Below are positions 22,748 through 50,906 of a DNA stretch of 64,000 nucleotides, piece by piece (positions within the stretch are counted from its first letter, which is position 1; the number at the start of each line of letters is the position of its first letter). Origin of the DNA: an uncultured Pirellula sp. (GTDB lineage: Bacteria > Planctomycetota > Planctomycetia > Pirellulales > Pirellulaceae); assembly GCA_903892355.1 (NCBI GenBank), contig CAITIE010000090.1, forward strand, positions 1 to 64,000. Direction: 5' to 3'. A model generated the notes under the pieces. The model ran no database searches. It was not told the DNA's origin and saw nothing but the letters and a program-made list of their open reading frames with translations. Position numbers and translations under genes: made by a program.

Positions 22748-22845
22748 AGCCGAGATCTTTAGCAAGATCCACTACGGTCGATTTACGGCTTCGCGTTTTC
22801 ATAACTTCGCGGCTTCGCGCGGAATGATCGGGGATTTGAATATCC

Positions 22846-32770: not shown

Positions 32771-32850
32771 ATGAATACACCAACGCGTTAATCAATCGTA
32801 GTGGATCTCGCTAGAGATCCCGACTGCTGAACATTCCGCACCTGAGTTTC

Positions 32851-40915: not shown

Positions 40916-41036
40916 ACGCGACGATGGCGATAACATCGATCGGTTAAGAGGAAATAGATTCGATGTTGCGATAGGTGTAAAAGGTGCGTGGATCGTGACG
41001 CGATTTTGTGGAGGTATGTTTTTAAGCCGTGGGAAT

Positions 41037-41154
41037 GTGGCACGACGCTCCGCCGTCGTCAAATACTGGCGTCATGGGTTGCGTGTCGTAATCGGGTTAA
41101 ATTGATTTGAGCATTTGCGGAGTTGTGGGCGACGACGGCGGAGCGTCGTTCCAC
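41037..41154 (+). repeat. REP doublet A (head-to-head, 118 bp)
   Basis: GTGG + CACGACGCTCCGCCGTCGT on the plus strand (41037-41059), a 72-base centre, then the reverse complement ACGACGGCGGAGCGTCGT with TCCAC (41132-41154). It has the same length and layout as doublets B and C. Downstream, the stretch GGGGTGCGG...GCCGAGC-GAGTCGTTCG is shared with the longer duplicated block at 42.6 and 43.5 kb, so this is a shortened copy of that block. Confidence 0.9.
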
Positions 41155-41255
41155 TTTGGGGTGCGGAACAATTTGGCACTGGCCGAGCTGAGTCGTTCGC
41201 TTGTCCGCAACCCAACTATTTTGGTGTTTCGTCTTCAAATCAAAGGAGAGCATAG

Positions 41256-41828
41256 ATGCGAAATTGGATTATGGTCCTTTTGACTGCGATATGGGGCGCC
41301 ACTGCTTCTTTTGGCTGGGCCCAAAGTCTCGTTAAGACCTTAGAGGAGCATCGAAAAGATCCGCTCCTCTCGAATCATCGCTTTCTTGCGTCGTTGGAAA
41401 AGCTAGATGGCTTTGTTCGAGTCACGGATAAGCCGTTTCTGATGCATGCGCCAACCGCGACTCAATGTGTCATCAATACTCATGTCGATGTTCATGGTGA
41501 TCGATTCTGCGATGTTTACATCAGCAAGGGGGGCGAGGCCGCAATTCGTGCTGGCACCGCAGAGTATCCCGTGGGGACCATCGTCATAAAGATCAAGTAT
41601 CCCGATGAAGAGCGAAGCAAAATTGAGTTGTATACCGTCATGCGAAAGATGCCGAAGGGATATTGGCCCGAGCATGGTGACTGGGAATTCAGCGTTTTGG
41701 ATTCTGAAAAAAAGCACGTGCTTGCGCGGGGGCGCGTGGAATCATGTGCAAATTGTCACGATGCATACGCTGCATCCGGATTCGTGACTCGGACCTACCT
41801 ACGAGAAAGAGTAAAAGACGCACCATGA
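41256..41828 (+). CDS. secreted cytochrome P460 family protein
   Basis: 190 residues, strong AAAGGAG ribosome-binding site. Signal peptide MRNWIMVLLTAIWGATASFGWAQ. The body fits the cytochrome P460 beta-barrel, with VYISKGGEAAIRAGTAEYPVGTIVIKIKY and MRKMPKGYWPEHGDWEFSVLD, and the C-terminal haem motif CANCH followed by DAYAASGFVTRTYL. P460 haem proteins oxidise hydroxylamine or detoxify nitric oxide in some bacteria; the role here is unknown. It sits in the REP-rich accessory region, between a REP doublet and an orphan membrane protein. Confidence 0.85.
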   Translation: MRNWIMVLLTAIWGATASFGWAQSLVKTLEEHRKDPLLSNHRFLASLEKLDGFVRVTDKPFLMHAPTATQCVINTHVDVHGDRFCDVYISKGGEAAIRAGTAEYPVGTIVIKIKYPDEERSKIELYTVMRKMPKGYWPEHGDWEFSVLDSEKKHVLARGRVESCANCHDAYAASGFVTRTYLRERVKDAP

Positions 41829-41930
41829 CATGTACCCAATGGACTCGGTCCGCCTCGCGAGCTTACGTTGAGTTCACGCGTCGTCCTCTGTGGTATTGGG
41901 CGTCCGTCCCGCCAGTAATGATCGCCAGCG

Positions 41931-42350
41931 ATGATCGATAACAATCCTTATTCCCCGCCATCGACTCAAGTCGATTCCGCACAGCCGTCGGCTATGCTGA
42001 TAGAGGCCCGGAAAGTTACTTGGTGGCCTGGCGTATTGATGATCGGTCAGGGAACCATCTTGTCGAGTGTATTCGCTATAGTCATTGCGGTCGAGTTATA
42101 TTCGCGCGGCGTGCCGAATCCTGCTTCACCTCAAAACTTTTTTATGTTTACGTTTCTTCTCGCACCACTACTTGTTTGGTGCGGTATACAACTGAAGCGA
42201 ATTGAATCGCGCAGACTATCTTACTTGGGGGCCGCACTATCTGTAGTGCTGTTTCTCCCAGTGGGGTGGGTTGTATGCATCTGGGCAATTATCGCTCTCA
42301 ATCGGCCAATGGTGCGCGAAGCGTTTAGGGTTCGGGAAATGGCTCAGTGA
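41931..42350 (+). CDS. hypothetical membrane protein with NPYSPP N-terminus
   Basis: 139 residues. MIDNNPYSPPSTQVDSA is a short proline-rich leader seen on many small planctomycete membrane proteins. Three or four hydrophobic segments follow (GVLMIGQGTILSSVFAIVIAVEL, FFMFTFLLAPLLVWCGIQL, LSYLGAALSVVLFLPVGWVVCIWAIIAL), ending with a short charged tail. The ribosome-binding site is weak. Function unknown; no relation to the neighbouring P460 protein is evident. Confidence 0.6.
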   Translation: MIDNNPYSPPSTQVDSAQPSAMLIEARKVTWWPGVLMIGQGTILSSVFAIVIAVELYSRGVPNPASPQNFFMFTFLLAPLLVWCGIQLKRIESRRLSYLGAALSVVLFLPVGWVVCIWAIIALNRPMVREAFRVREMAQ

Positions 42351-42606
42351 CCATTAGAGGGAAGCACTAGGACGAACGAAAAATTACAGCCAAGCGGCGG
42401 ATCAGGCATTTTGCCAAATGGAATCATTTTCTACCGCCATTGGCTGAACGGCTGCGTTATATCTACGTGGGATCTCACAACGGGGGGCGCGAGGACACAG
42501 AGTCAGATTGGTGGTCAGGGATGGATTCTGCGCATTCTGGCGGGTGTCAGTTCTTCTCCGGTCCTCAGCGTCGTTGTAGGAGTTTTGTGAAGTTGCTTTT
42601 TGCAGC

Positions 42607-42890
42607 AGAGAACAACGTGGCACGACGCTCCGCCGTCGTGGAATGCTGGGCTCACGGGTTCTGTTTCGTGATGGGGATGCATTGATTTGAGTTAATGCGG
42701 AGTTGCGGGCGACGACGGCGGAACGTCGTTCTACTTTGGGGTGCGGTATGCTTTGGTGCTTGCCGAGCACGGAGGTCGAGAGGTACAATCGAAGAAGTGT
42801 GAATGGTGAAGCTGGAAGTTTGAAAGCCGAGCCGAGTCGTTCGGATGCCCTTTTCAGACTTCAACATTTGAACTTCAGACTTCCTCTGGG
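42607..42890 (+). repeat. duplicated intergenic block, copy 1 (about 284 bp)
   Basis: From AGAGAACAACGTGG to CTTCCTCTGGG, this block is a diverged direct repeat of 43505-43781. It contains REP doublet B, then GGTGCGGTATGCTTTGGTGC, GCCGAGCACGGAGGTCGAGA and a stretch of GAAGTTTGAA / CAGACTTCAA micro-inverted repeats. A truncated third copy is at 41031-41200. It lies between orphan genes and contains no credible gene. Confidence 0.85.
42617..42734 (+). repeat. REP doublet B (head-to-head, 118 bp)
   Basis: GTGG + hairpin at 42617-42639 and the inverted copy at 42712-42734, which has one substitution (CGGAACG) and the tetranucleotide complement CTAC, that is GTAG on the minus strand. Length identical to doublets A and C. 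Confidence 0.9.
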
Positions 42891-43013
42891 CGCCCACCCC
42901 AAACCCAGGACTTACAAGGCTTCGTTACGCCAAAAAACTCTCGACACCATGCACCGGATGGACCTCTTGTTTTGATTTCAGCGGTTCATTTTCGCGTGCC
43001 TCAAAGGAGAACT

Positions 43014-43313
43014 ATGCAACCCGGGACAATAGTCGGAATTGTTGGCTTAGCGATCGGTATTTGTGGTGGTATTGTTGGTACGTACTTTAGCATCAGGAAC
43101 ACAAACGGTCCAAAGGAACGGTCCTTTGTGATTAAGGCTTCGGCAATGACCTGGGTGGCCGTGGCTGTTTTTTTGTCTGCACTTCTCCTGCTGCCTTCAC
43201 CATATAACCAATTGATGTGGATCCCGTACGGACTGCTTCTTGGATTTGGGATTCGAAAGCTTAACGAAATGCAGAAAAGAATTCATGACGAAGAAATCAC
43301 CTTTCCGTCATGA
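43014..43313 (+). CDS. hypothetical small membrane protein
   Basis: 99 residues from ATG 43014, which has AAAGGAG six bases upstream; the longer frame is rejected. MQPGTIVGIVGLAIGICGGIVGTYFSIRNT is a Gly-rich first membrane segment, followed by WVAVAVFLSALLLL and LMWIPYGLLLGFGIRKL, and a charged C-terminus. Function unknown. It stands between two copies of the duplicated REP-containing block. Confidence 0.6.
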   Translation: MQPGTIVGIVGLAIGICGGIVGTYFSIRNTNGPKERSFVIKASAMTWVAVAVFLSALLLLPSPYNQLMWIPYGLLLGFGIRKLNEMQKRIHDEEITFPS

Positions 43314-43504
43314 TGCGATGCTGACTGCGCTATGGCATGGGAATCTTCGTCGTGCCTTGACGAGTTGTGTAGGCATGCAGTGCGTGTTCTTGCAGTGAGC
43401 GACGCAAGAGCATCGCTAAGATCCTAGGCGTAGACCAAACTACGGGATAACCGATAATGGATTAGATCTTGCGTCGTTGCGATCGGGACGTTCGGTCGGG
43501 GTAC
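43314..43504. other. intergenic, nothing recognised
   Basis: A stretch before the second duplicated block. No gene, RNA or clear hairpin was recognised. Confidence 0.4.
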
Positions 43505-43781
43505 AGAGAACAACGTGGCATGACGCTCCGCCGTCGTGAAATTCTGTGCTCATGGGTTCAGTTTCGGTAGGCGGCTATATTGATTTGAGTTGTTGCGGCG
43601 TTGCGGGCGACGACGGCGGAGCGTCGTTCCACTTTGGGGTGCGGTATGCTTTGGTGCTTGCCGAGCACGGAGGTCGAGAGCTAGAATCGAAAAAGTTTGA
43701 ATGGTGAAGTTGGAAGTTGGAAAGCCGAGCAGAGTCGTTCGGGTCTCTATTTCAGACTTCAACCTTCGAACTTCCTCTGGG
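43505..43781 (+). repeat. duplicated intergenic block, copy 2 (about 277 bp)
   Basis: Matches 42607-42890 along its whole length with scattered substitutions and small indels. The GGTGCGGTATGCTTTGGTGC and TTGCCGAGCACGGAGGTCGA segments are identical. Contains REP doublet C. The start of the next orphan gene lies 49 bases downstream. Confidence 0.85.
43515..43632 (+). repeat. REP doublet C (head-to-head, 118 bp)
   Basis: GTGG + hairpin at 43515-43537 (one change, CATGACG) and the perfect inverted copy at 43610-43632. Same total length as A and B, which suggests that the doublet rather than the single REP is the unit that moved or was copied. Confidence 0.9.
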
Positions 43782-43829
43782 ATTCCATGAGTTCTTTAGT
43801 CGATTGGATACTTTTCATGGAGCGAGTTG

Positions 43830-44186
43830 ATGGACAGGTCGGTATCAAAGCAGTTCGCACTAGGTTCGATTTTTGGCCTTATGATTATGGTCGCGGCAAT
43901 GGCTGGCCTGGCTTGCCGATTTGGTTTGCAGGGGTTCGTTTTTGGCATCGATTTCGTTATTGTGCTATGGATACTCGCATCGTTTAGTGGTTCAAGATCT
44001 TTGAGGCCTTTCTCAAACCGGCACCTTTCAATTGCTGAGATCGCAACCATGGCGGCTGTCTGTTTGATACTGCATGGACTTGCTATGCCTGCCGTGCAAA
44101 CGGGGCCACACCGTCGACGTGCAACTACGCCCGTAACGATTCCTCCAACCTCCGGTGGAACAACGGCGGCGGCTCCAACGCCCTAA
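43830..44186 (+). CDS. hypothetical membrane protein
   Basis: 118 residues. ATG 43830 has GGAG seven bases upstream. MDRSVSKQFALGSIFGLMIMVAAMAGLACRFG begins with a first membrane helix, then GFVFGIDFVIVLWILASFSG and IAEIATMAAVCLILHGLAMP, and a Thr/Pro-rich tail (TPVTIPPTSGGTTAAAPTP). Function unknown; typical of small planctomycete inner-membrane proteins. It lies 55 bases before another short orphan. Confidence 0.6.
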   Translation: MDRSVSKQFALGSIFGLMIMVAAMAGLACRFGLQGFVFGIDFVIVLWILASFSGSRSLRPFSNRHLSIAEIATMAAVCLILHGLAMPAVQTGPHRRRATTPVTIPPTSGGTTAAAPTP

Positions 44187-44241
44187 CGCACCAGAGTACA
44201 ATGCAAAAAGCGACGCCTAACAATGAAGGAGCTCGCTAGCG

Positions 44242-44616
44242 ATGCAGTTCAAGCTTCGGTCGATCTTACTAGTCATGTTGTTGCTTGGGCTCGCGTTCGC
44301 TTGCCAAAGAACTCTCGAAGTAAGTTGGTTTGCTCCAGCGCGCAAGGGAGCGGAGTCACAAGCCAAATTCAACCAGCTCATCGCAGACAATAAGTGGGAT
44401 GGTGTCATTGCCCCAACCCATTATTTGCACAATGTACGTATCTTGATCCATGGTATTGAGGAGGCGGAAATCAGGAAGTTGTATCCAATACTCCATGAGA
44501 TCTATTGGCTCCGGCATGTTGAAATTTACGCTCCGGAGATTTCGCAAAGGATGCTCGATGAACTGCAATCCGAATTTCCGCAGTGTATTATAGACGCGAA
44601 GATTCGCTTGCCCTGA
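44242..44616 (+). CDS. hypothetical protein with N-terminal membrane anchor
   Basis: 124 residues with a strong AAGGAG upstream. The start MQFKLRSILLVMLLLGLAFA is a very common planctomycete N-terminus (F-x-L-R-x-x-L-L) that serves as a membrane anchor or signal. The remainder (EEAEIRKLYPILHEIYWLRH, EISQRMLDELQSEFPQCII) is a small mixed domain reminiscent of a leucine-rich-repeat unit. Function unknown. Confidence 0.6.
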   Translation: MQFKLRSILLVMLLLGLAFACQRTLEVSWFAPARKGAESQAKFNQLIADNKWDGVIAPTHYLHNVRILIHGIEEAEIRKLYPILHEIYWLRHVEIYAPEISQRMLDELQSEFPQCIIDAKIRLP

Positions 44617-44666
44617 ATTTAATGTCAGTTCCAATGGCAAGGAGGAAGCTCACGTGGCACGGAGAA

Positions 44667-44730
44667 ACGACGGCGGAGCGTCGTGCCACTTTGGTTCCGG
44701 TTGTTTAACGACGGCGGAGCGTCGTTCTAC
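44667..44730 (+). repeat. two tandem REPs, 41-bp period
   Basis: Cores at 44667-44684 and 44708-44725, same orientation (hairpin read on the minus strand), separated by a spacer ending GTTCCGGTTGTTTA. The start-to-start distance is 41 bases, as in the tandem at 46220-46324 and the pair at 49071/49112. It lies directly upstream of the gene starting at 44762. Confidence 0.9.
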
Positions 44731-44761
44731 TATATGTCGAATTGCGAGAAGGACGGTATTC

Positions 44762-45241
44762 ATGAGACCACTATCGCCTAGTGAGGCCTTCACAAAACTC
44801 CGACGCTTTTGCTTGGGGCTTGGTTGGGACGCACCCTTGGTCGCGAATCGAACTCCCGAGGAATTGCACGATCGGGGGAAGCATTCTCTTATGCGTTACT
44901 TCTACACGATGTACGAAACGGATTCTCCAATCTGCCTGCAGATCAATCCGCAAACGGATCTGCACCCTCGGTTGTTCGCCATAAGTATCTTTGCGTTGCG
45001 ATACCGGATCTGCACCGGTTGGCACGGATTTATGCTGGATCGGAACATGAAACGCGAGATCGTGGATGTATCGCGATGGGCTCATGCGAGTCTGTTTGAA
45101 ACCGTAGGGAGCCGAAAGGCTTTTCGCGAATCGAATCCTGAGTGTTGCGATTATACGTGGAAACGCATTCGAGACTTTGGGGGGCCATATCCCCAAAGCT
45201 CAACGTACGAACGTTGGCAGAATCGTGGAATTGTTGATTGA
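44762..45241 (+). CDS. hypothetical protein
   Basis: 159 residues from ATG 44762 (MRPLSPSEAFTKLRRFCLGL) with AGAAGGA upstream. The longer frame begins inside REP DNA and is rejected. Soluble, with several Trp/Tyr/Cys residues and a segment RKAFRESNPECCDYTWKRIR. No family recognised and no motif of an enzyme seen. Confidence 0.5.
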   Translation: MRPLSPSEAFTKLRRFCLGLGWDAPLVANRTPEELHDRGKHSLMRYFYTMYETDSPICLQINPQTDLHPRLFAISIFALRYRICTGWHGFMLDRNMKREIVDVSRWAHASLFETVGSRKAFRESNPECCDYTWKRIRDFGGPYPQSSTYERWQNRGIVD

Positions 45242-45295
45242 CCATCTAGGGCTAAATTCCGATTGCACTGGAGGCAGGGTGCAGTTTCGTAGATA

Positions 45296-45428
45296 GTAGC
45301 ACGACGCTCCGCCGTCGTGTGCTGACGTTGTTTACAACGTCGGATGGCTGTTGACGTGGCGAGTTGCGACGCGGAGGGTAGTGATGCGATGTGTATGTTC
45401 ATTTCACGACGGCGGAGCGTCGTGCCAC
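45296..45428 (+). repeat. REP doublet downstream of the RAYT gene
   Basis: GTAG + CACGACGCTCCGCCGTCGTG (45296-45319) and an inverted copy at 45406-45428. The centre contains a separate 7-bp hairpin, GACGTTG-TTTA-CAACGTC, and a possible degenerate REP (CGACGCGGAGGGTAG) one 41-bp period before the right copy. The right copy ends five bases after the RAYT stop codon and has the same orientation as the RAYT gene. Confidence 0.88.
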
Positions 45429-45433
45429 TATGT

Positions 45434-46102
45434 TTAGTCTGTGCGATTCCAGTAGAGATAGTCTGACGGTGGTAGATTCGCTGCAATGCCATTGCGGGCG
45501 ATGTAGCGTTGCAAATACGCGAATTGATCGGCGCTACGCACTAAATGATCGAAGGGCTCGCTCTGCCAAAACGACCCTCTGCGACCCAGTCGCCTATTGA
45601 TCCGATGAGCAGTAAAGTGCAACCAGCTATCGCATTGGTGACAGCATGTTGTCGGAGGGTTGAACTGTACCAGAAGATGCACATGGTTCGGCATCACGAT
45701 CGCACAATCGAGATGGTATCGGTCGCCATCGAAATGCCTGAGTGACTCTATAACAATCTCGGCAAGTTCCCGATTGCGCAAGACACACTCACCATGGCAG
45801 GCATCGAGGCTTCCATGCCAAAGCTGACTGCGATATTTCAGAAATTCCGAGCGGAGGGAACTTGGTAACTTCGTGAGATCTTTGGGAGGTGGGGGGCCTT
45901 CGATTTCGATTCCATGGTCACGGAGCCATCGGCAGAGTTTGCATTGCCAAGCATCGACCACTTGCTTTGGCATCGAATCCGAAGTTCGAAAGGTGATGAA
46001 GGTGGCAACGCCGGGCTGGAACCAGTGCGGCAGGTTCCTCGCGGATATGTCGATGTCGGCGTCGCGATCGAAAACACCGAATACGACGGGGTCGTTCATC
46101 AT
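45434..46102 (-). CDS. REP-associated tyrosine transposase (RAYT, TnpA-REP; IS200/IS605-like Y1 HUH nuclease)
   Basis: 222 residues; GGGAA lies before the ATG at 46102 (a second ATG follows directly). Start of the domain: HWFQPGVATFITFRTSDSMP. The HUH motif is IVMPNHVHLLVQF (His-Val-His metal ligands), and the C-terminal catalytic Tyr lies in LQRYIARNGIAANL; GSFWQSEPFDHLVRS is the segment typical of REP-associated members. Y1 enzymes of this group cut single-stranded REP hairpins next to a GTAG-like tetranucleotide and are single-copy domesticated relatives of IS200. The surrounding palindromes carry just that tetranucleotide, so they are its probable substrate. Confidence 0.92.
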   Translation of the reverse strand: MMNDPVVFGVFDRDADIDISARNLPHWFQPGVATFITFRTSDSMPKQVVDAWQCKLCRWLRDHGIEIEGPPPPKDLTKLPSSLRSEFLKYRSQLWHGSLDACHGECVLRNRELAEIVIESLRHFDGDRYHLDCAIVMPNHVHLLVQFNPPTTCCHQCDSWLHFTAHRINRRLGRRGSFWQSEPFDHLVRSADQFAYLQRYIARNGIAANLPPSDYLYWNRTD

Positions 46103-46134
46103 TTATTCCCTTTCTATCGTATGTGGATGAAAAA

Positions 46135-46157
46135 GTAGCACGATGCTCCGCGTCGTG
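46135..46157 (+). repeat. degenerate REP upstream of the RAYT gene
   Basis: GTAG followed by CACGATGCTCCGCGTCGTG, one base shorter than the consensus, on the plus strand. It lies 33 bases upstream of the RAYT start and points away from the gene. Together with the copies at 45296-45428 and 46220-46324 it brackets the transposase. Confidence 0.8.
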
Positions 46158-46219
46158 AAATGATATCGAGCTGTTGATTGTAGCTTGATTGGGATTCCGT
46201 GGTTGTTGAGTTGGAGATC

Positions 46220-46324
46220 ACGACGGCGGAGCGTCGTGCTACTATCGTTGCCGTTATTTCACGACGGCGGAGCGTCGTGCTACTTTCGTTCCTGTTATTT
46301 TACGACGGCGGAGCGTCGTGCCAC
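46220..46324 (+). repeat. three tandem REPs, exact 41-bp period
   Basis: Cores at 46220-46237, 46261-46278 and 46302-46319, all identical (ACGACGGCGGAGCGTCGT) and in the same orientation, followed by GCTAC, GCTAC and GCCAC (complement of the GTAG/GTGG tetranucleotide). The spacers are similar to each other (CGTTGCCGTTATTTC, CGTTCCTGTTATTTT), so the repeat unit is the full 41 bp. They lie in the gap between the divergent RAYT and esterase genes. Confidence 0.95.
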
Positions 46325-46405
46325 GATGGTGCGGACTCTTGGTAGAATCTGTAGTGACGCTCCTGTGCCTACTCGAAATCCCACTCTCCCACCGTGAACC
46401 TTGAC

Positions 46406-48994
46406 ATGCAAATACTTCCTAAAATACTTATCGCGCTTGTTTGGGTCGGTTGTAGCACCGCATCCGGATTTTTTGATGCCTCGGCCGATCGCGAAGTTCA
46501 GCCCGGTGTGCCTCGAGGAAAGATTACCTCGGGTGAGTTCAACGACAGTCAAATTTTTCCCGGTACCAAGCGGCAGTACAGTGTTTACGTACCCGCTCAA
46601 TACGACCCAGCAGCGCCGGCGAGCTTGATGGTGTTCATGGATGGCTCCGGATACGCGCAAGCCGATGGCGCGTTTCGTGTGCCAGTCGTGTTTGACAACT
46701 TGATCCATCAAAAGGCCATGCCGGTGACAATTGCGGTATTCGTCAATCCTGGCACCATCGCGGGTGCTAAACCCGGTGCGGCCGATCGTAGCAATCGGTC
46801 GTTTGAATACGATTCTCTCGGCGATCGGTATTCCAAGTTTCTGATCGATGAGTTCCTGCCCGTCGCACTGAAGGATTTAAATGTTTCAACGTCGGCCAAG
46901 GATCGTGCTGTCGGTGGGATCTCTTCGAGCGGTATTTGCGCGTTCACTGTCGCTTGGGAACGTCCAGACCAATTCGGCAAAGTCCTCAGCCATATCGGAA
47001 GCTTCACGAACATCCGCGGCGGATGGGCTTATCCAGGTCTGATTCGTAAATCCAAAAGGGATCCAAAGCCGATCAAGGTCTACCTTCAGGAAGGAAAGGA
47101 TGACCTCAACAACCTCCACGGTAACTGGCCGCTCGGAAACCATGACATGGCAGCTGCGCTCCAGTTCGCGGGCTACAACTACCAATTGGTAATGACCGAT
47201 GGCGGGCACAGCGGTAAATGGGGCGGTGAGGAACTGCCAACCGCCTTGCGATGGCTTTGGGATAACGATGCGAAGTCAACCGAAGTGCCGATCGTTGAAA
47301 CCAAACCAAAATGGGAACCCCATCCCGATGCGATCGTGCAGGATTCGGTACCGCACGGGAAAGTGATCTCGATGGCACCATGGGAATCCAAAGTGTTCCC
47401 GAACACCACCCGCGATTGGTCGATCTATGTCCCTGCTCAGTACAACGAGAACGAACCCGCCGCGCTGATGATCTTTCAAGACGGAGAGCGGATGCGGAAT
47501 GAGAAAGGTCGTTGGCGTATACCCACCGTCTTCGACAATCTGATTGCCCGAGGCGAGATGCCGGTCACGATCGCTGTGTTTATCAACCCTGGCCACGAAA
47601 CATCAAAGCCGCTCCAAGATCAACGATTTTCCAATCGAAGCCTCGAATACGATAGCCTTGGTGATCGCTATGTTCGATTCCTCCTCGAAGAGATAATCCC
47701 TGAAGTTGAAAAGGATTATCGACTGTCCAAGGATCCTGAGATGCGAGCCATCGGAGGCTCCAGCTCCGGTGCTATCTGTGCGTTCACCGCTGCATGGGAA
47801 CGCCCGGAGATGTTTCGCAAGGTCTATTCGGCCGTGGGTAGCTTTACTAATCTTCGGGGTGGCAATGTCTACCCAGCCTGGGTACGCAAGACCGAGCCTA
47901 AACCGCTGCGTGTCTACATGTCCGATACCAGTGGCGATATCGACAACCCATTCGGCAGTTGGCCGTGGTCGAACCGTCTCATGGCATCGGCGTTGACCTA
48001 CATGGGATACGATGTTCGCCTGGATTGGCAGGAAGGGTATGCGCACAACGATGATTATGGCAGTTCGATCTTCCCGGATGCGATGCGATGGTTGTGGAGA
48101 AAAGAATCTCACAAGCCTACGTACGACACGCGCGGTGATCTGGGTGGTGATCTGACGCTACTTAATCAGTTGGTCCCCGGCGAGTCCTGGACTGTGGTTG
48201 CCGACAAACTTGGATTCGCAGATGGACTGTGTACGGACAAGGAAGGGAATCTCTTCTATTGCGATATGAAATCGTCCGAGGTTGTGCGGATCGATGCCAA
48301 GGATGGATCTCGCAAAACGATTGCAAAGGAGTCGGTCAGCGGTTTGGAATTCAGCCCCGACGGGAATCTTCTCTATGCATGTCAAGGTTCCAAAGATCGC
48401 GTGATATCGATCGATGTTCAAAGCGGAGATGTCAAAGTCGTCGCGACAGGCGTTAAGCCTAATGATTTGGCGGTGACCCAAGAAGGTTGGATTTTGATCA
48501 CCGAGACAGGTGCAAAGCAGGTAACTCGTATCGATCCAAAGTCAGGTGAAGTGTCCCCCGTGGATGTCGGTATTGCTCTCCCTAATGGGATTGCCCTTTC
48601 CAACGATGGAGGCACCTTGGTGGTGTCCGATTATGGTGGCGAGCATGCTTGGACCTTTCGTGTTCATGCCGACGGAAAACTCGAAGCGAAAATGCCCAGC
48701 ATGACTTTGCGACTGCCGATCGATCAAAACGGTGAGTTTCGATTCAATGAGCCACCACCTTACATGGCATCCTCCAAGGGAGACGGTTTGGCAGTCGATC
48801 GAAAGGGACGCTATTACATTACCAGTGAACTAGGAGTGCAGATATTTGATCCGACAGGTCGAATGTGTGGTGTGCTTCCCAAACCACTCAAAGATCAGCC
48901 GTTAACCACCTGTGTTTTGGCCGGGCCCGATCATAGCACGCTTTATATTGCGAACGGGACAACGATTTATAGTCGACGACTAAAGGTGGATTAG
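46406..48994 (+). CDS. secreted double esterase fused to SMP-30/gluconolactonase domain
   Basis: About 860 residues; the signal peptide MQILPKILIALVWVGCSTASG starts at ATG 46406 (a GTG four codons earlier is possible). Three domains are visible. Esterase 1 (~25-295): YSVYVPAQYDP, then GGISSSG with Ser173 and GGHSGKWGG. Esterase 2 (~310-580): WSIYVPAQYNEN, GGSSSG with Ser453 and GYAHNDDYG. The two are clear internal duplicates. The SMP-30/gluconolactonase-like beta-propeller (~595-860) has GFADGLCTDKEGNLFYCDM, LPNGIALSNDGGTLVVSD and DGLAVDRKGRYYI. Domain 1 has Ser where the GxSxG elbow of domain 2 has its second Gly. Likely a periplasmic multi-step ester or lactone hydrolase; substrate unknown. 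Confidence 0.85.
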   Translation: MQILPKILIALVWVGCSTASGFFDASADREVQPGVPRGKITSGEFNDSQIFPGTKRQYSVYVPAQYDPAAPASLMVFMDGSGYAQADGAFRVPVVFDNLIHQKAMPVTIAVFVNPGTIAGAKPGAADRSNRSFEYDSLGDRYSKFLIDEFLPVALKDLNVSTSAKDRAVGGISSSGICAFTVAWERPDQFGKVLSHIGSFTNIRGGWAYPGLIRKSKRDPKPIKVYLQEGKDDLNNLHGNWPLGNHDMAAALQFAGYNYQLVMTDGGHSGKWGGEELPTALRWLWDNDAKSTEVPIVETKPKWEPHPDAIVQDSVPHGKVISMAPWESKVFPNTTRDWSIYVPAQYNENEPAALMIFQDGERMRNEKGRWRIPTVFDNLIARGEMPVTIAVFINPGHETSKPLQDQRFSNRSLEYDSLGDRYVRFLLEEIIPEVEKDYRLSKDPEMRAIGGSSSGAICAFTAAWERPEMFRKVYSAVGSFTNLRGGNVYPAWVRKTEPKPLRVYMSDTSGDIDNPFGSWPWSNRLMASALTYMGYDVRLDWQEGYAHNDDYGSSIFPDAMRWLWRKESHKPTYDTRGDLGGDLTLLNQLVPGESWTVVADKLGFADGLCTDKEGNLFYCDMKSSEVVRIDAKDGSRKTIAKESVSGLEFSPDGNLLYACQGSKDRVISIDVQSGDVKVVATGVKPNDLAVTQEGWILITETGAKQVTRIDPKSGEVSPVDVGIALPNGIALSNDGGTLVVSDYGGEHAWTFRVHADGKLEAKMPSMTLRLPIDQNGEFRFNEPPPYMASSKGDGLAVDRKGRYYITSELGVQIFDPTGRMCGVLPKPLKDQPLTTCVLAGPDHSTLYIANGTTIYSRRLKVD

Positions 48995-49003
48995 CATAGC
49001 GGT

Positions 49004-49134
49004 ACGACGCTCTGTCGTCGTGTACGAGAAGTGATTGATTCAGTTTCAGGTGTTTAGCATGGAGTGGGGCACTACGGTGGAGCTTCGTGCTACGATAGTT
49101 CCGATTGATTAACGACGGCGGAGCGTCGTGCCAC
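49004..49134 (+). repeat. REP cluster between esterase and dimethylformamidase-like genes
   Basis: A degenerate plus-strand copy at 49004-49021 (ACGACGCTCTGTCGTCGT), a degenerate minus-strand copy at 49071-49088 (ACTACGGTGGAGCTTCGT) and a perfect minus-strand copy at 49112-49129, followed by GCCAC. The last two are again 41 bases apart, with the spacer ending GTTCCGATTGATTA. This is the rightmost REP group seen. Confidence 0.85.
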
Positions 49135-49156
49135 TTTGGGTGATTGGAGTAAACGT

Positions 49157-50689
49157 ATGCTGAGCAATTCGTGTTGGTATCGTTCGATGCTTCTGTGCAG
49201 CCTGGTCGGGGTTGTGATTGTTGCTGCGTATAGCGACGTTCACTCGCAAGACGTTTCGAACGCGAGCAATCCAGTCGTCCTCGAAAACCAATTGCCTGGT
49301 AGCACCGATTGGCAGTTGACCCGGGTGCGAGTGGACGGCAGTCGTTATCGTTCCCCTTGGATTGAGGGGTACTGTTCTAAGCAGAGCGTGAAGGCGGGAG
49401 AGTCCATCGATATCAAGGTTTCCACAAATCCGGCGCGTCCATTCAGGCTTGAGATCTTTCGAACCGGTTACTACGGCGGCGCGGGAGCGAGAAAGGTGGC
49501 GAGCATAGGTCCATTGCCGGGAAAAACGCAGGCAACTCCTACTCCAGGAGAAAAGGATTTGCACGAATGCCGTTGGGAGACAAGTTATTCGTTATCGATT
49601 CCAAACGACTGGATCAGCGGCGTGTACTTGGGTCGATTGACCACAATCCCTGAAGCGGAGCAAGAGCCGTATTGGCAGAGCTATGTGATTTTTGTAGTTA
49701 CCGATGACCGAAAATGCGATGTGTTGTTCCAGTGTTCGGATAACACGTGGCAAGCCTACAACCAATGGCCGAGCCATTACTCGGTGTATACACATCCCAA
49801 GGGGAATCAGGGGCCTTGGGCAGACGTCAGTTTTGACCGTCCCTACGGTCGAGAAGCACAATTTGATAGTGTTGTGAATGATCCGCTGACCGTGGGGGCG
49901 GGCGAGTATCTGCCGCTCGAGTTTCCGCTCGCGTATTGGCTAGAGCAACATGGTTATGACGTCTCGTACTGTTGCAACAGCGACATGGTCACGCCCGATC
50001 GTGGCTTGAAAAGCCGAGTCATGATCAGCGTCGGTCACGATGAGTATTGGGACATCCGCCAATTCCGCAGCGTGGAACGCTTGCGCGACGAGGGAGTTAG
50101 TTTGATGTTCCTATCGGGGAACAGTGTCTGTTGGGTAGCCCCATATCGAGATAGTTTCGATGGGCGAGCCAACCGGATCTTTTTTCGAGGTGGGCCTTAC
50201 GGGGGCGACCGTCCCGTGGTGCAAGCACGTGCCAAGGATCACGGGCCATTCCCAGAACGAGGGCCTGATGAAGGGCTATTGATGGGGGCTCGCAATGTCG
50301 AGCCGGTCAATGGTGGAGGGGATTGGATCTGCGTCCAGCCCGAGCATTGGATATTTGAGGGGACCGGAATGAAGCGAGGGGAATCGATTCCTGGCCTCAT
50401 CGGTTGGGAGTACCATGGGGATCCTGCGGACATTCCTGGATTGCAGGTCGTGGGAGCTGGGACTGCGTGGGTGAGTGGCGAGAAACCGCAGCAGTGGACA
50501 GCCACTGTTTACGAAGGGCCCAAAGGAAATGTGGTGTTCAATGCATCGAGTATTTTTTGGGTCCAAGGCTTATCGGACCCGCCCGGGCATACTCTTCCTT
50601 GGTCGCATTGGAGCAGACCGCATGGGCCGGATCCTCGCGTACAGAGGATTACGAAAAACGTTTTGACGCGTGCTTTGCAAGGGCGTTAA
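49157..50689 (+). CDS. secreted N,N-dimethylformamidase beta-subunit-like protein
   Basis: Start ATG 49157 (MLSNSCWYRSMLLCSLVGVVIVAAY) with GGAG upstream and a good signal peptide. The large body has the features of the family: IEGYCSKQSVKAGESIDIKVST (N-terminal beta domain), RTGYYGG, a lectin-like YWQSYVIFVV segment, DVLFQCSDNTWQAYNQW, MISVGHDEYWD (metal or active-site region) and LMFLSGNSVCWVAPY. The C-terminal SSIFWVQGL fits too. Known dimethylformamidases are alpha/beta complexes; no small alpha-subunit gene is nearby, so the activity of this exported homologue is open. Confidence 0.8.
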   Translation: MLSNSCWYRSMLLCSLVGVVIVAAYSDVHSQDVSNASNPVVLENQLPGSTDWQLTRVRVDGSRYRSPWIEGYCSKQSVKAGESIDIKVSTNPARPFRLEIFRTGYYGGAGARKVASIGPLPGKTQATPTPGEKDLHECRWETSYSLSIPNDWISGVYLGRLTTIPEAEQEPYWQSYVIFVVTDDRKCDVLFQCSDNTWQAYNQWPSHYSVYTHPKGNQGPWADVSFDRPYGREAQFDSVVNDPLTVGAGEYLPLEFPLAYWLEQHGYDVSYCCNSDMVTPDRGLKSRVMISVGHDEYWDIRQFRSVERLRDEGVSLMFLSGNSVCWVAPYRDSFDGRANRIFFRGGPYGGDRPVVQARAKDHGPFPERGPDEGLLMGARNVEPVNGGGDWICVQPEHWIFEGTGMKRGESIPGLIGWEYHGDPADIPGLQVVGAGTAWVSGEKPQQWTATVYEGPKGNVVFNASSIFWVQGLSDPPGHTLPWSHWSRPHGPDPRVQRITKNVLTRALQGR

Positions 50690-50906
50690 ACAGATGTCAT
50701 TTGTGTTAGTAGTCGTCGGGATTTCTGTATCCTAGAGTTCCAGGTTGGGGCCTTTCCGCTGGTGCCTCTATGTGTCTCGACCAAGCTTCAGGTTCGGTTG
50801 GGTCGGTAAGAATGGTTGTGCAGGCTGTTCCGACCAAGGGGATCCTACAATGGATTAAAATGGCGCAACCTTACCCCCCCGATTAGATAAACCAACCTAA
50901 GGTTTC

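Follow-up and report, generated by a model that had tools for sequence, protein, structure and literature searches.

If a transposase gene is surrounded by many copies of one small hairpin, do the two form a single system, and is that system still at work? The question arises for a 64,000-nucleotide stretch of the genome of an uncultured Pirellula sp. (hereafter 'the window'), in which a gene for a Y1/HUH transposase (45434-46102, minus strand) lies among copies of the hairpin CACGACGCTCCGCCGTCGTG, with stem arms CACGACG and CGTCGTG and loop CTCCGC. A first-pass annotation, made from the sequence alone, had read the gene as a REP-associated tyrosine transposase (RAYT) and the hairpins, which are repetitive extragenic palindromes (REPs), as its substrate. 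We conclude with good confidence that the locus is a REPtron, that is, one RAYT gene together with REP hairpins that the RAYT recognises. A second and far more tentative proposal concerns the four-base 'tag', or foot, found at the 5' side of the hairpins: in the Pirellulaceae, its third base may be an evolving letter of specificity.

The transposase and its hairpins

The gene, which the first-pass annotation had placed correctly, encodes 222 amino acids and matches Pfam Y1_Tnp (5.3e-05) as well as the NCBIfam RAYT model NF047646 (3.8e-13, 49.6 bits, below the curated cut-off), a model that 31 of 31 aligned RAYT sequences match at E <= 0.001. The HUH motif (H140-V-H142) and the catalytic tyrosine (Y200, in YIARNG) are at the expected positions and invariant in the 31-sequence alignment. 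So are W179, Q180, H186 and R189, which align with E. coli TnpA-REP (4er8) in a profile alignment; this WQ...H..R region is the equivalent of the tag-contacting residues of the E. coli enzyme. When the PDB was searched with a profile of RAYT sequences, 4er8 came first (2.9e-6; next 0.077). It ranks first, too, when an AlphaFold2 model of the protein (predicted local distance difference test, pLDDT, 88.6) is compared by fold, with Z 13.3 over 135 residues by VIA-align and IS608 following at 11.7; Foldseek likewise places it at the top. In addition, REP hairpins with a 5' GT[AG]G foot lie on both sides of the gene, as is characteristic of RAYTs. The product is a RAYT (TnpA-REP), as had been proposed. 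By name, its relatives include Pirellula metagenome assemblies, Rhodopirellula europaea, Aporhodopirellula aestuarii and Neorhodopirellula pilleata.

At up to three mismatches, the window contains CACGACGCTCCGCCGTCGTG 16 times, always between 41041 and 49130; chance would give 0.02, and none of 100 shuffles reaches 16. A 17th copy (46135-46157) has a 1-nucleotide deletion. Both the earlier estimate of about seventeen palindromes and their confinement to 41.0-49.1 kb of the window are borne out. Of the 17 copies, 16 have GTGG or GTAG as their tag, and not every one as had been stated, the copy at 49003 having GCGG; the tag abuts the stem directly, without the spacer base of the earlier search pattern. 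Mapping against genes placed 16 of 16 hairpins between them, although 71% of 41000-49199 is coding (ten open reading frames, ORFs, were taken as genes), a placement equalled by 17 of 10,000 rotations. The traits that define REPs and their inverted pairs, or REPINs, are all found here: a short palindrome, GTRG at one end, intergenic position and inverted pairing.

In the whole assembly (6.18 Mb, 158 contigs, 97% complete), 31 matches to CACGACGCTCCGCCGTCGTG were found at up to three mismatches, compared to 1 for a reversed control pattern, and the window holds 16 of them. Among the 15 matches outside it, 11 have GTRG, 1 has GCAG, 2 are untagged (contigs C84 and C92; these are probably chance matches) and 1 (C133) was left uncounted. 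The first-pass annotation had named loss of the tag across genomic copies as evidence against its reading; within this genome the tag is kept in most copies. The RAYT itself has one match in the genome at E <= 0.001. A second RAYT, on contig C14, is surrounded by a different hairpin, GGATCTTGCTAAAGATCC (tag GTAGT, arms GGATCTT and AAGATCC, loop GCTA), with 10 copies in the first 1.2 kb of C14 and 37 genome-wide at up to two mismatches. The two sets hardly mix: the first hairpin is absent from the 8 kb examined at C14, and the window has two stray copies of the second, both solitary and GTAGT-tagged (22753-22770 and 32803-32820). Several copies of this second REP family are grouped, on C14, C118 and C152.

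A similar pairing is seen across 137 RAYT relatives with flanks (35 from one search and 102 from another). Repeated hairpins with a TC[CT] loop lie near 113 of them, and GTNG is the shared 5' foot in 102 of these 113 loci, the next-best pattern reaching 33 in this test, which was made without conditioning on GTNG. RAYT identity and hairpin identity vary together in the 103 RAYTs with a called hairpin (Spearman 0.36, equalled in 0 of 1000 permutations of a Mantel test that is uncorrected for the shared ancestry of whole loci): mean best hairpin identity is 0.41 to 0.46 below 50% RAYT identity, 0.81 at 60 to 70%, and at least 0.98 above 70%. This co-variation, the GTNG foot near relatives and the second RAYT with its own hairpin all argue for the inference of the first-pass annotation: to judge from sequence comparison, the hairpins are very probably the substrate of this RAYT.

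How the REPtron would operate may be drawn from the TnpA-REP enzymes of E. coli, Stenotrophomonas and Marinomonas, from which binding, nicking and strand transfer are extrapolated (PMC8266576). The RAYT would bind both the 5' GTRG tag and the hairpin, the latter as a single strand folded into a 7-bp stem and a TCC-centred loop; its tyrosine would nick the strand near the tag, and the ends would then be rejoined. Nicking and rejoining would produce tandem 41-bp units and would move REPINs as small mobile units, mainly near the RAYT's own gene.

Layout of the array

Four inverted pairs are present, with start-to-start spacings of 90, 90, 90 and 105 bp; in each, the left arm is on the plus strand and the right arm on the minus strand. 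REPIN 1 (41037-41060 and 41131-41154) has the tag GTGG on both arms. In REPIN 2, the left arm (42617-42640) is an exact consensus copy tagged GTGG, and the right arm (42711-42734) has GTAG. REPIN 3 (43515-43538 and 43609-43632) again has GTGG on both. A 272-bp duplication (42606-42876 and 43504-43774, 89% identical) includes REPINs 2 and 3, so that not all hairpin copies are independent events. Both arms of REPIN 4 are exact consensus copies, the left (45296-45319) tagged GTAG and the right (45405-45428) tagged GTGG, the latter lying 5 bp beyond the 3' end of the RAYT gene. Folding as single-stranded DNA was predicted to give a 7-bp stem on either strand of the one copy tested (z -2.6 and -2.7), and two inverted pairs fold far beyond shuffles (z -7.2 for REPIN 4 and -4.3 for REPIN 2). 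In Pseudomonas, too, inverted REP pairs are said to be the probable mobile unit; the Pseudomonas REPINs reportedly have hundreds of dispersed copies, whereas here half sit around the RAYT.

Other copies, all on the minus strand, form head-to-tail 41-bp units at 44666/44707, 46219/46260/46301 and 49070/49111. The first group consists of 44666-44689 (GTGG) and 44707-44730 (GTAG). The second, upstream of the RAYT, comprises 46219-46242 and 46260-46283, both exact consensus copies tagged GTAG, and 46301-46324 (GTGG). In the third, a degenerate copy with 3 mismatches and the tag GTAG (49070-49093) is joined to 49111-49134 (GTGG). On the plus strand lie another degenerate copy (48999-49022; 3 mismatches, tag GCGG) and the 17th copy (46135-46157), upstream of the RAYT start, which has one base deleted and one changed and carries GTAG. 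Its counterpart in the related genome G005 (locus L035) has the same deletion, a perfect 8-bp stem and a TCC loop.

Pfam identifies three neighbouring genes as coding for a cytochrome P460-like protein (41256-41828), a fusion of esterase and SMP-30/gluconolactonase domains (46394-48994) and a DMFase beta-subunit-like protein (49157-50689). Elsewhere among the relatives, RAYT genes with directly repeated REPIN copies on both sides were observed at two loci (L040 and L039); in G048, for instance, the period is 751 bp.

Persistence and loss of the two partners

Within the genus, 9 of 27 genomes contain 6 to 30 copies of the hairpin at up to two mismatches, and 5 of 27 contain a RAYT at least 58% identical, 4 of these being among the 9; most relatives are draft assemblies, in which the absence of a RAYT is weak evidence. 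According to the first-pass annotation, its reading would suffer if the palindrome were equally common in genomes lacking the RAYT. This is partly so, 5 of the 9 having no close RAYT, yet the two partners remain associated (Fisher p 0.03). Two of the five, G008 and G007, show RAYT loss. The array is kept in G008, where about 0.86 kb including the RAYT is missing and both edges lie in directly repeated hairpins, a comparison that rests on BLAST pieces and hairpin flanks. One hairpin is found at the junction (L092, G008:C272, about 2600-2650); on its left it has the flank of one repeat, on its right that of another. RAYT and hairpin are absent together from the G008 locus, which deletion explains. 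In G007 (L094, G007:C96, contig positions 6920-7120), a RAYT remnant corresponding to the last codons, NGTEANLPASDYLYWSRT, directly precedes two hairpins of this family, beyond which lies an inverted pair with the TCC-type loop. The other three genomes (G015, G024 and G025, all draft assemblies) have hairpins and no close RAYT. The genus shows REPs persisting after RAYT loss.

A related species, G005, has a 97% identical RAYT at the same locus, and it shares the array (93 to 95% identical where aligned) as well as the copies on C98, C32 and C53. Being shared at the same loci, many hairpin copies look old, and with so many orthologous copies there is little sign of recent movement. A segment of about 1.06 kb with two small ORFs (43609-44666) is absent from G005, and both its edges, the right arm of REPIN 3 and the REP at 44666-44689, lie in directly repeated hairpins. 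This segment and that missing from G008 can both be explained by deletion between direct repeats. Another G005 contig (L112, G005:C490) aligns to 48260-49037 and 49124-50707 of the window with 86-88% identity, and has one hairpin where the window has three (49003-49130); since its alignment overlaps a better one from a different contig, C490 may represent a paralogue.

Several points weigh against the REPtron reading. Besides the five genomes in which the hairpin is found without a close RAYT, no pair of insertion and empty site proving recent movement was found, and for the copies on C97 and C88 there is no clean empty site in G005, G008, G024 or G007. The 31 hairpin copies are few compared to the more than 100 per genome that are usual for REPs (PMC2817692). 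A third RAYT-like match lies on C56, and the 2.0 kb retrieved there shows no such hairpin. The tandem trio upstream of the RAYT, taken as a whole, folds no better than shuffles (z -1.35). The RAYT remains below the 80 bits required by NF047646 and is therefore not assigned to that narrow equivalog, and the Mantel test leaves shared ancestry in place.

If movement is no longer taking place, the system may be a relic: the RAYT would once have made the hairpins, and today's array would be kept and reshuffled by recombination and replication slippage, with the RAYT idle or serving the host otherwise. This is compatible with a REPtron origin, and it agrees with the orthology of many copies in G005, with the breaks of both presence/absence segments in directly repeated hairpins, as simple deletion would give, with the inclusion of REPINs 2 and 3 in a larger duplication, and with the hairpins that persist in G007 beside a 3' remnant. 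However, the RAYT has an intact reading frame, with 97% identity to that of G005, H140, H142 and Y200 are invariant, and four hairpins around the RAYT are exact consensus copies. We regard a relic as possible, though rather unlikely.

The two presence/absence differences bounded by hairpins could also suggest that the RAYT cuts at directly repeated hairpin pairs and excises or moves gene segments (the small ORFs or its own gene), in the manner of a single-strand cassette exchanger. Groups of hairpins do alternate with one or two small ORFs, 4 of 6 of which have no Pfam match at E <= 0.01. Yet plain recombination between repeats accounts for both differences. Moreover, the 124-residue ORF missing at the G005 locus has a relative of 74% identity elsewhere in G005, around which neither this hairpin nor any GTNG-tagged hairpin with a TC[CT] loop was found in the 2.3 kb fetched. 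Such an exchanger appears improbable. That the hairpins act as terminators of transcription, or as a regulatory RNA element of some other type, with the RAYT an unrelated neighbour, would fit their position between genes in 16 of 16 cases and is very improbable, as none of the 16 full copies is called as a terminator, only 2 of 14 terminator-like calls (8.9 in shuffles, standard deviation 2.6) touch hairpins (46139-46152, in the deleted copy, and 45313-45327), Rfam has no match in 40.5-49.5 kb, and the tag and the link with RAYT lineages would be left unexplained.

The third base of the tag

The tag can be compared between lineages. In the first 35 RAYT loci, 200 hairpins were found with a GTNG foot, compared to 14 to 57 for thirteen control feet. 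Over all 137 loci, a foot was called in 105: GTAG or GTGG in 53, GTCG in 48, and GTTG in 4; both these calls and the 35-locus search with its control feet are conditioned on GTNG. The residue counts given below leave out the remaining 32 loci, of which 30 were uncalled and 2 mixed. A query across the class with a RAYT of the GTCG lineage, matched in 92 of 397 genomes, added 56 loci outside the Pirellulaceae, of which 34 have GTRG, 4 GTCG and 1 GTTG, 5 being mixed and 12 uncalled. Fixed GTCG feet are, in this sample, mainly a trait of the Pirellulaceae.

The tag, conserved within the present genome, differs in three others: G009, G015 and G017 carry a 20-nucleotide hairpin identical to that of the window, with the tag GTTG in 71 of 80 copies (the genus search had 82; end letters of the pattern count as mismatches). 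The base 3 nucleotides before the tag (position -7) is T in 74 of these 80 copies and A in 27 of 27 in the present genome, a count that omits, from the 31, the copy on C6, the untagged C84 and C92, and C133. At GTCG loci it is A in 92%, again conditioned on GTNG. The dinucleotide ending at -7 is CA in 18 of 27 copies here and CT in 50 of 80 copies in the three other genomes; among the tandem copies of G009 and G017 it is CT in 17 of 20. By analogy with TnpA-REP, where cleavage is described at CT or CA as chosen by the tag (PMC8266576), this dinucleotide, 2 nucleotides before the tag, is the probable nick site: it reads NA in 27 of 28 tagged copies here, when that of C6 (GTGG, T at -7) is added. 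Against this, tandem copies have CA in just 3 of 7 cases here, compared to 4 of 5 in G005, and GA or TA in the others.

Two rules of pairing were tried and rejected. Under a simple guide rule, by which base 3 of the tag would pair with base 2 of the nick site, CA would be expected for GTTG, where CT is seen. A pairing with T2 and G4 of the tag, which is the CA rule reported for the Marinomonas enzyme (PMC8266576), suits the lineages with GTRG or GTCG, provided that CA is their nick site; the lineage with GTTG does not follow it. It was also considered whether the GTCG-tagged REPs are the transposase-less 'CGTC' REPs, whose stem almost always starts with AT and which have a CCA-type tail at the end (PMC3733652); stem start and tail rule this out. 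Two loci have paired hairpins with two tags, GTAG with GTCG (L134) and GTAG with GTTG (L189), and these are possibly tag switches in progress.

Which residue of the RAYT could read the third base? Among all alignment columns, the most informative on the foot is the residue before PHW (L24 in the 222-residue numbering, position 23 when counting from the second Met), which is R or K in 46 of 48 GTCG loci and L, M or F in 48 of 53 GTRG loci. In an enlarged set of 138 loci it predicts the foot in 93.5%, compared to 89.9% for the best other column. L24 falls where the model (residues 21 to 222) aligns to the N-terminus of 4er8 (chain residues 1 to 140), and the first-strand region is among those said to contact GTAG (PMC8266576). 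On the RAYT tree, residue 24 changes 3 times and the foot 7 times, with gains of R/K in GTCG lineages. Exceptions are three groups with GTRG and R/K (L198; L199; L173, L201 and L208) and two loci with GTCG and L (L101 and L056). Phylogenetically independent pairs numbered 2 in the same direction, 0 in the opposite direction and 4 without difference (2, 0 and 3 with the 56 extra loci); independent changes on the tree are too few, and the 0.05 level is out of reach with either set. We treat residue 24 as a lead to the reader of the third tag base, not as a result.

We tentatively propose that in the Pirellulaceae the third tag base may be an evolving specificity letter, different lineages having fixed A/G, C or T. 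The RAYT would adapt to it, chiefly by L24 to R/K, near the first strand, for C; the nick dinucleotide could shift, being NA, often CA, next to GTRG and GTCG, and CT next to GTTG; and the 20-nucleotide hairpin could stay the same.

The locus itself is of a known kind, since hairpins tagged GTAG, and repeat-flanked genes for tyrosine transposases, were reported in 2013 for Rhodopirellula baltica of the same phylum (PMC3733652). The first-pass view that planctomycete REP/RAYT pairs are little described was accordingly only partly right, given the GTAG REPs and many tyrosine transposases of that report. In its available text, no lineage-wise change of tag tied to the RAYT tree was found. Our locus also resembles the group 3 REPtrons of Stenotrophomonas and Marinomonas, with a Y1/HUH enzyme, perfect palindromes, short loops, and GTAG at the stem or 2 nucleotides from it (PMC8266576). 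In contrast to them, the loop here is TCC-centred, and related Pirellulaceae lineages have fixed GTCG or GTTG tags; the Stenotrophomonas enzyme is described as leaving a GTTG substrate uncleaved in vitro (PMC8266576). E. coli TnpA-REP, the best fold match, has WQ, H, R and YI.NP-type motifs in common in the profile alignment, but the REP stems of E. coli are bulged, and its enzyme does not tolerate any substitution in GTAG (PMC8266576). With IS200/IS605 elements (IS608, ISDra2) the RAYT shares the HUH/Y1 fold (Z about 10-12) and the logic of a hairpin with a guide tetranucleotide (PMC8266576); unlike in these, the left and right ends of an insertion sequence were not recognised at the locus, and the protein is longer, with an N-terminal extension.

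In earlier surveys, GT[AG]G feet are the rule (PMC6006769, PMC3733652): the automatic search of Quentin et al. 2018 looked for such feet (PMC6006769), and degenerate tags GTRG or GTMG are mentioned for some REP families (Di Nocera et al. 2013, PMC3733652). RAYT lineages with fixed GTCG or GTTG tags, or one hairpin under two tags, were not found among the literature matches listed, a coverage that lies outside subscription papers, figures and supplements. The new part is the lineage-wise third tag base among Pirellulaceae-type RAYTs.

How RAYTs recognise their hairpins, and how RAYT and REPs change together, is not settled; the available recognition study compared three enzyme/hairpin pairs (PMC8266576). 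The more than 100 planctomycete RAYT loci with callable tagged hairpins are ready-made enzyme/substrate pairs for tests of tag reading, and, as they include fixed GTCG and GTTG lineages and one hairpin under two tags, they form a natural test bed for target choice. If the proposal on the third tag base is true, the Pirellulaceae would hold a natural series of retargeted single-strand nucleases, with a target code that could be read from genomes.

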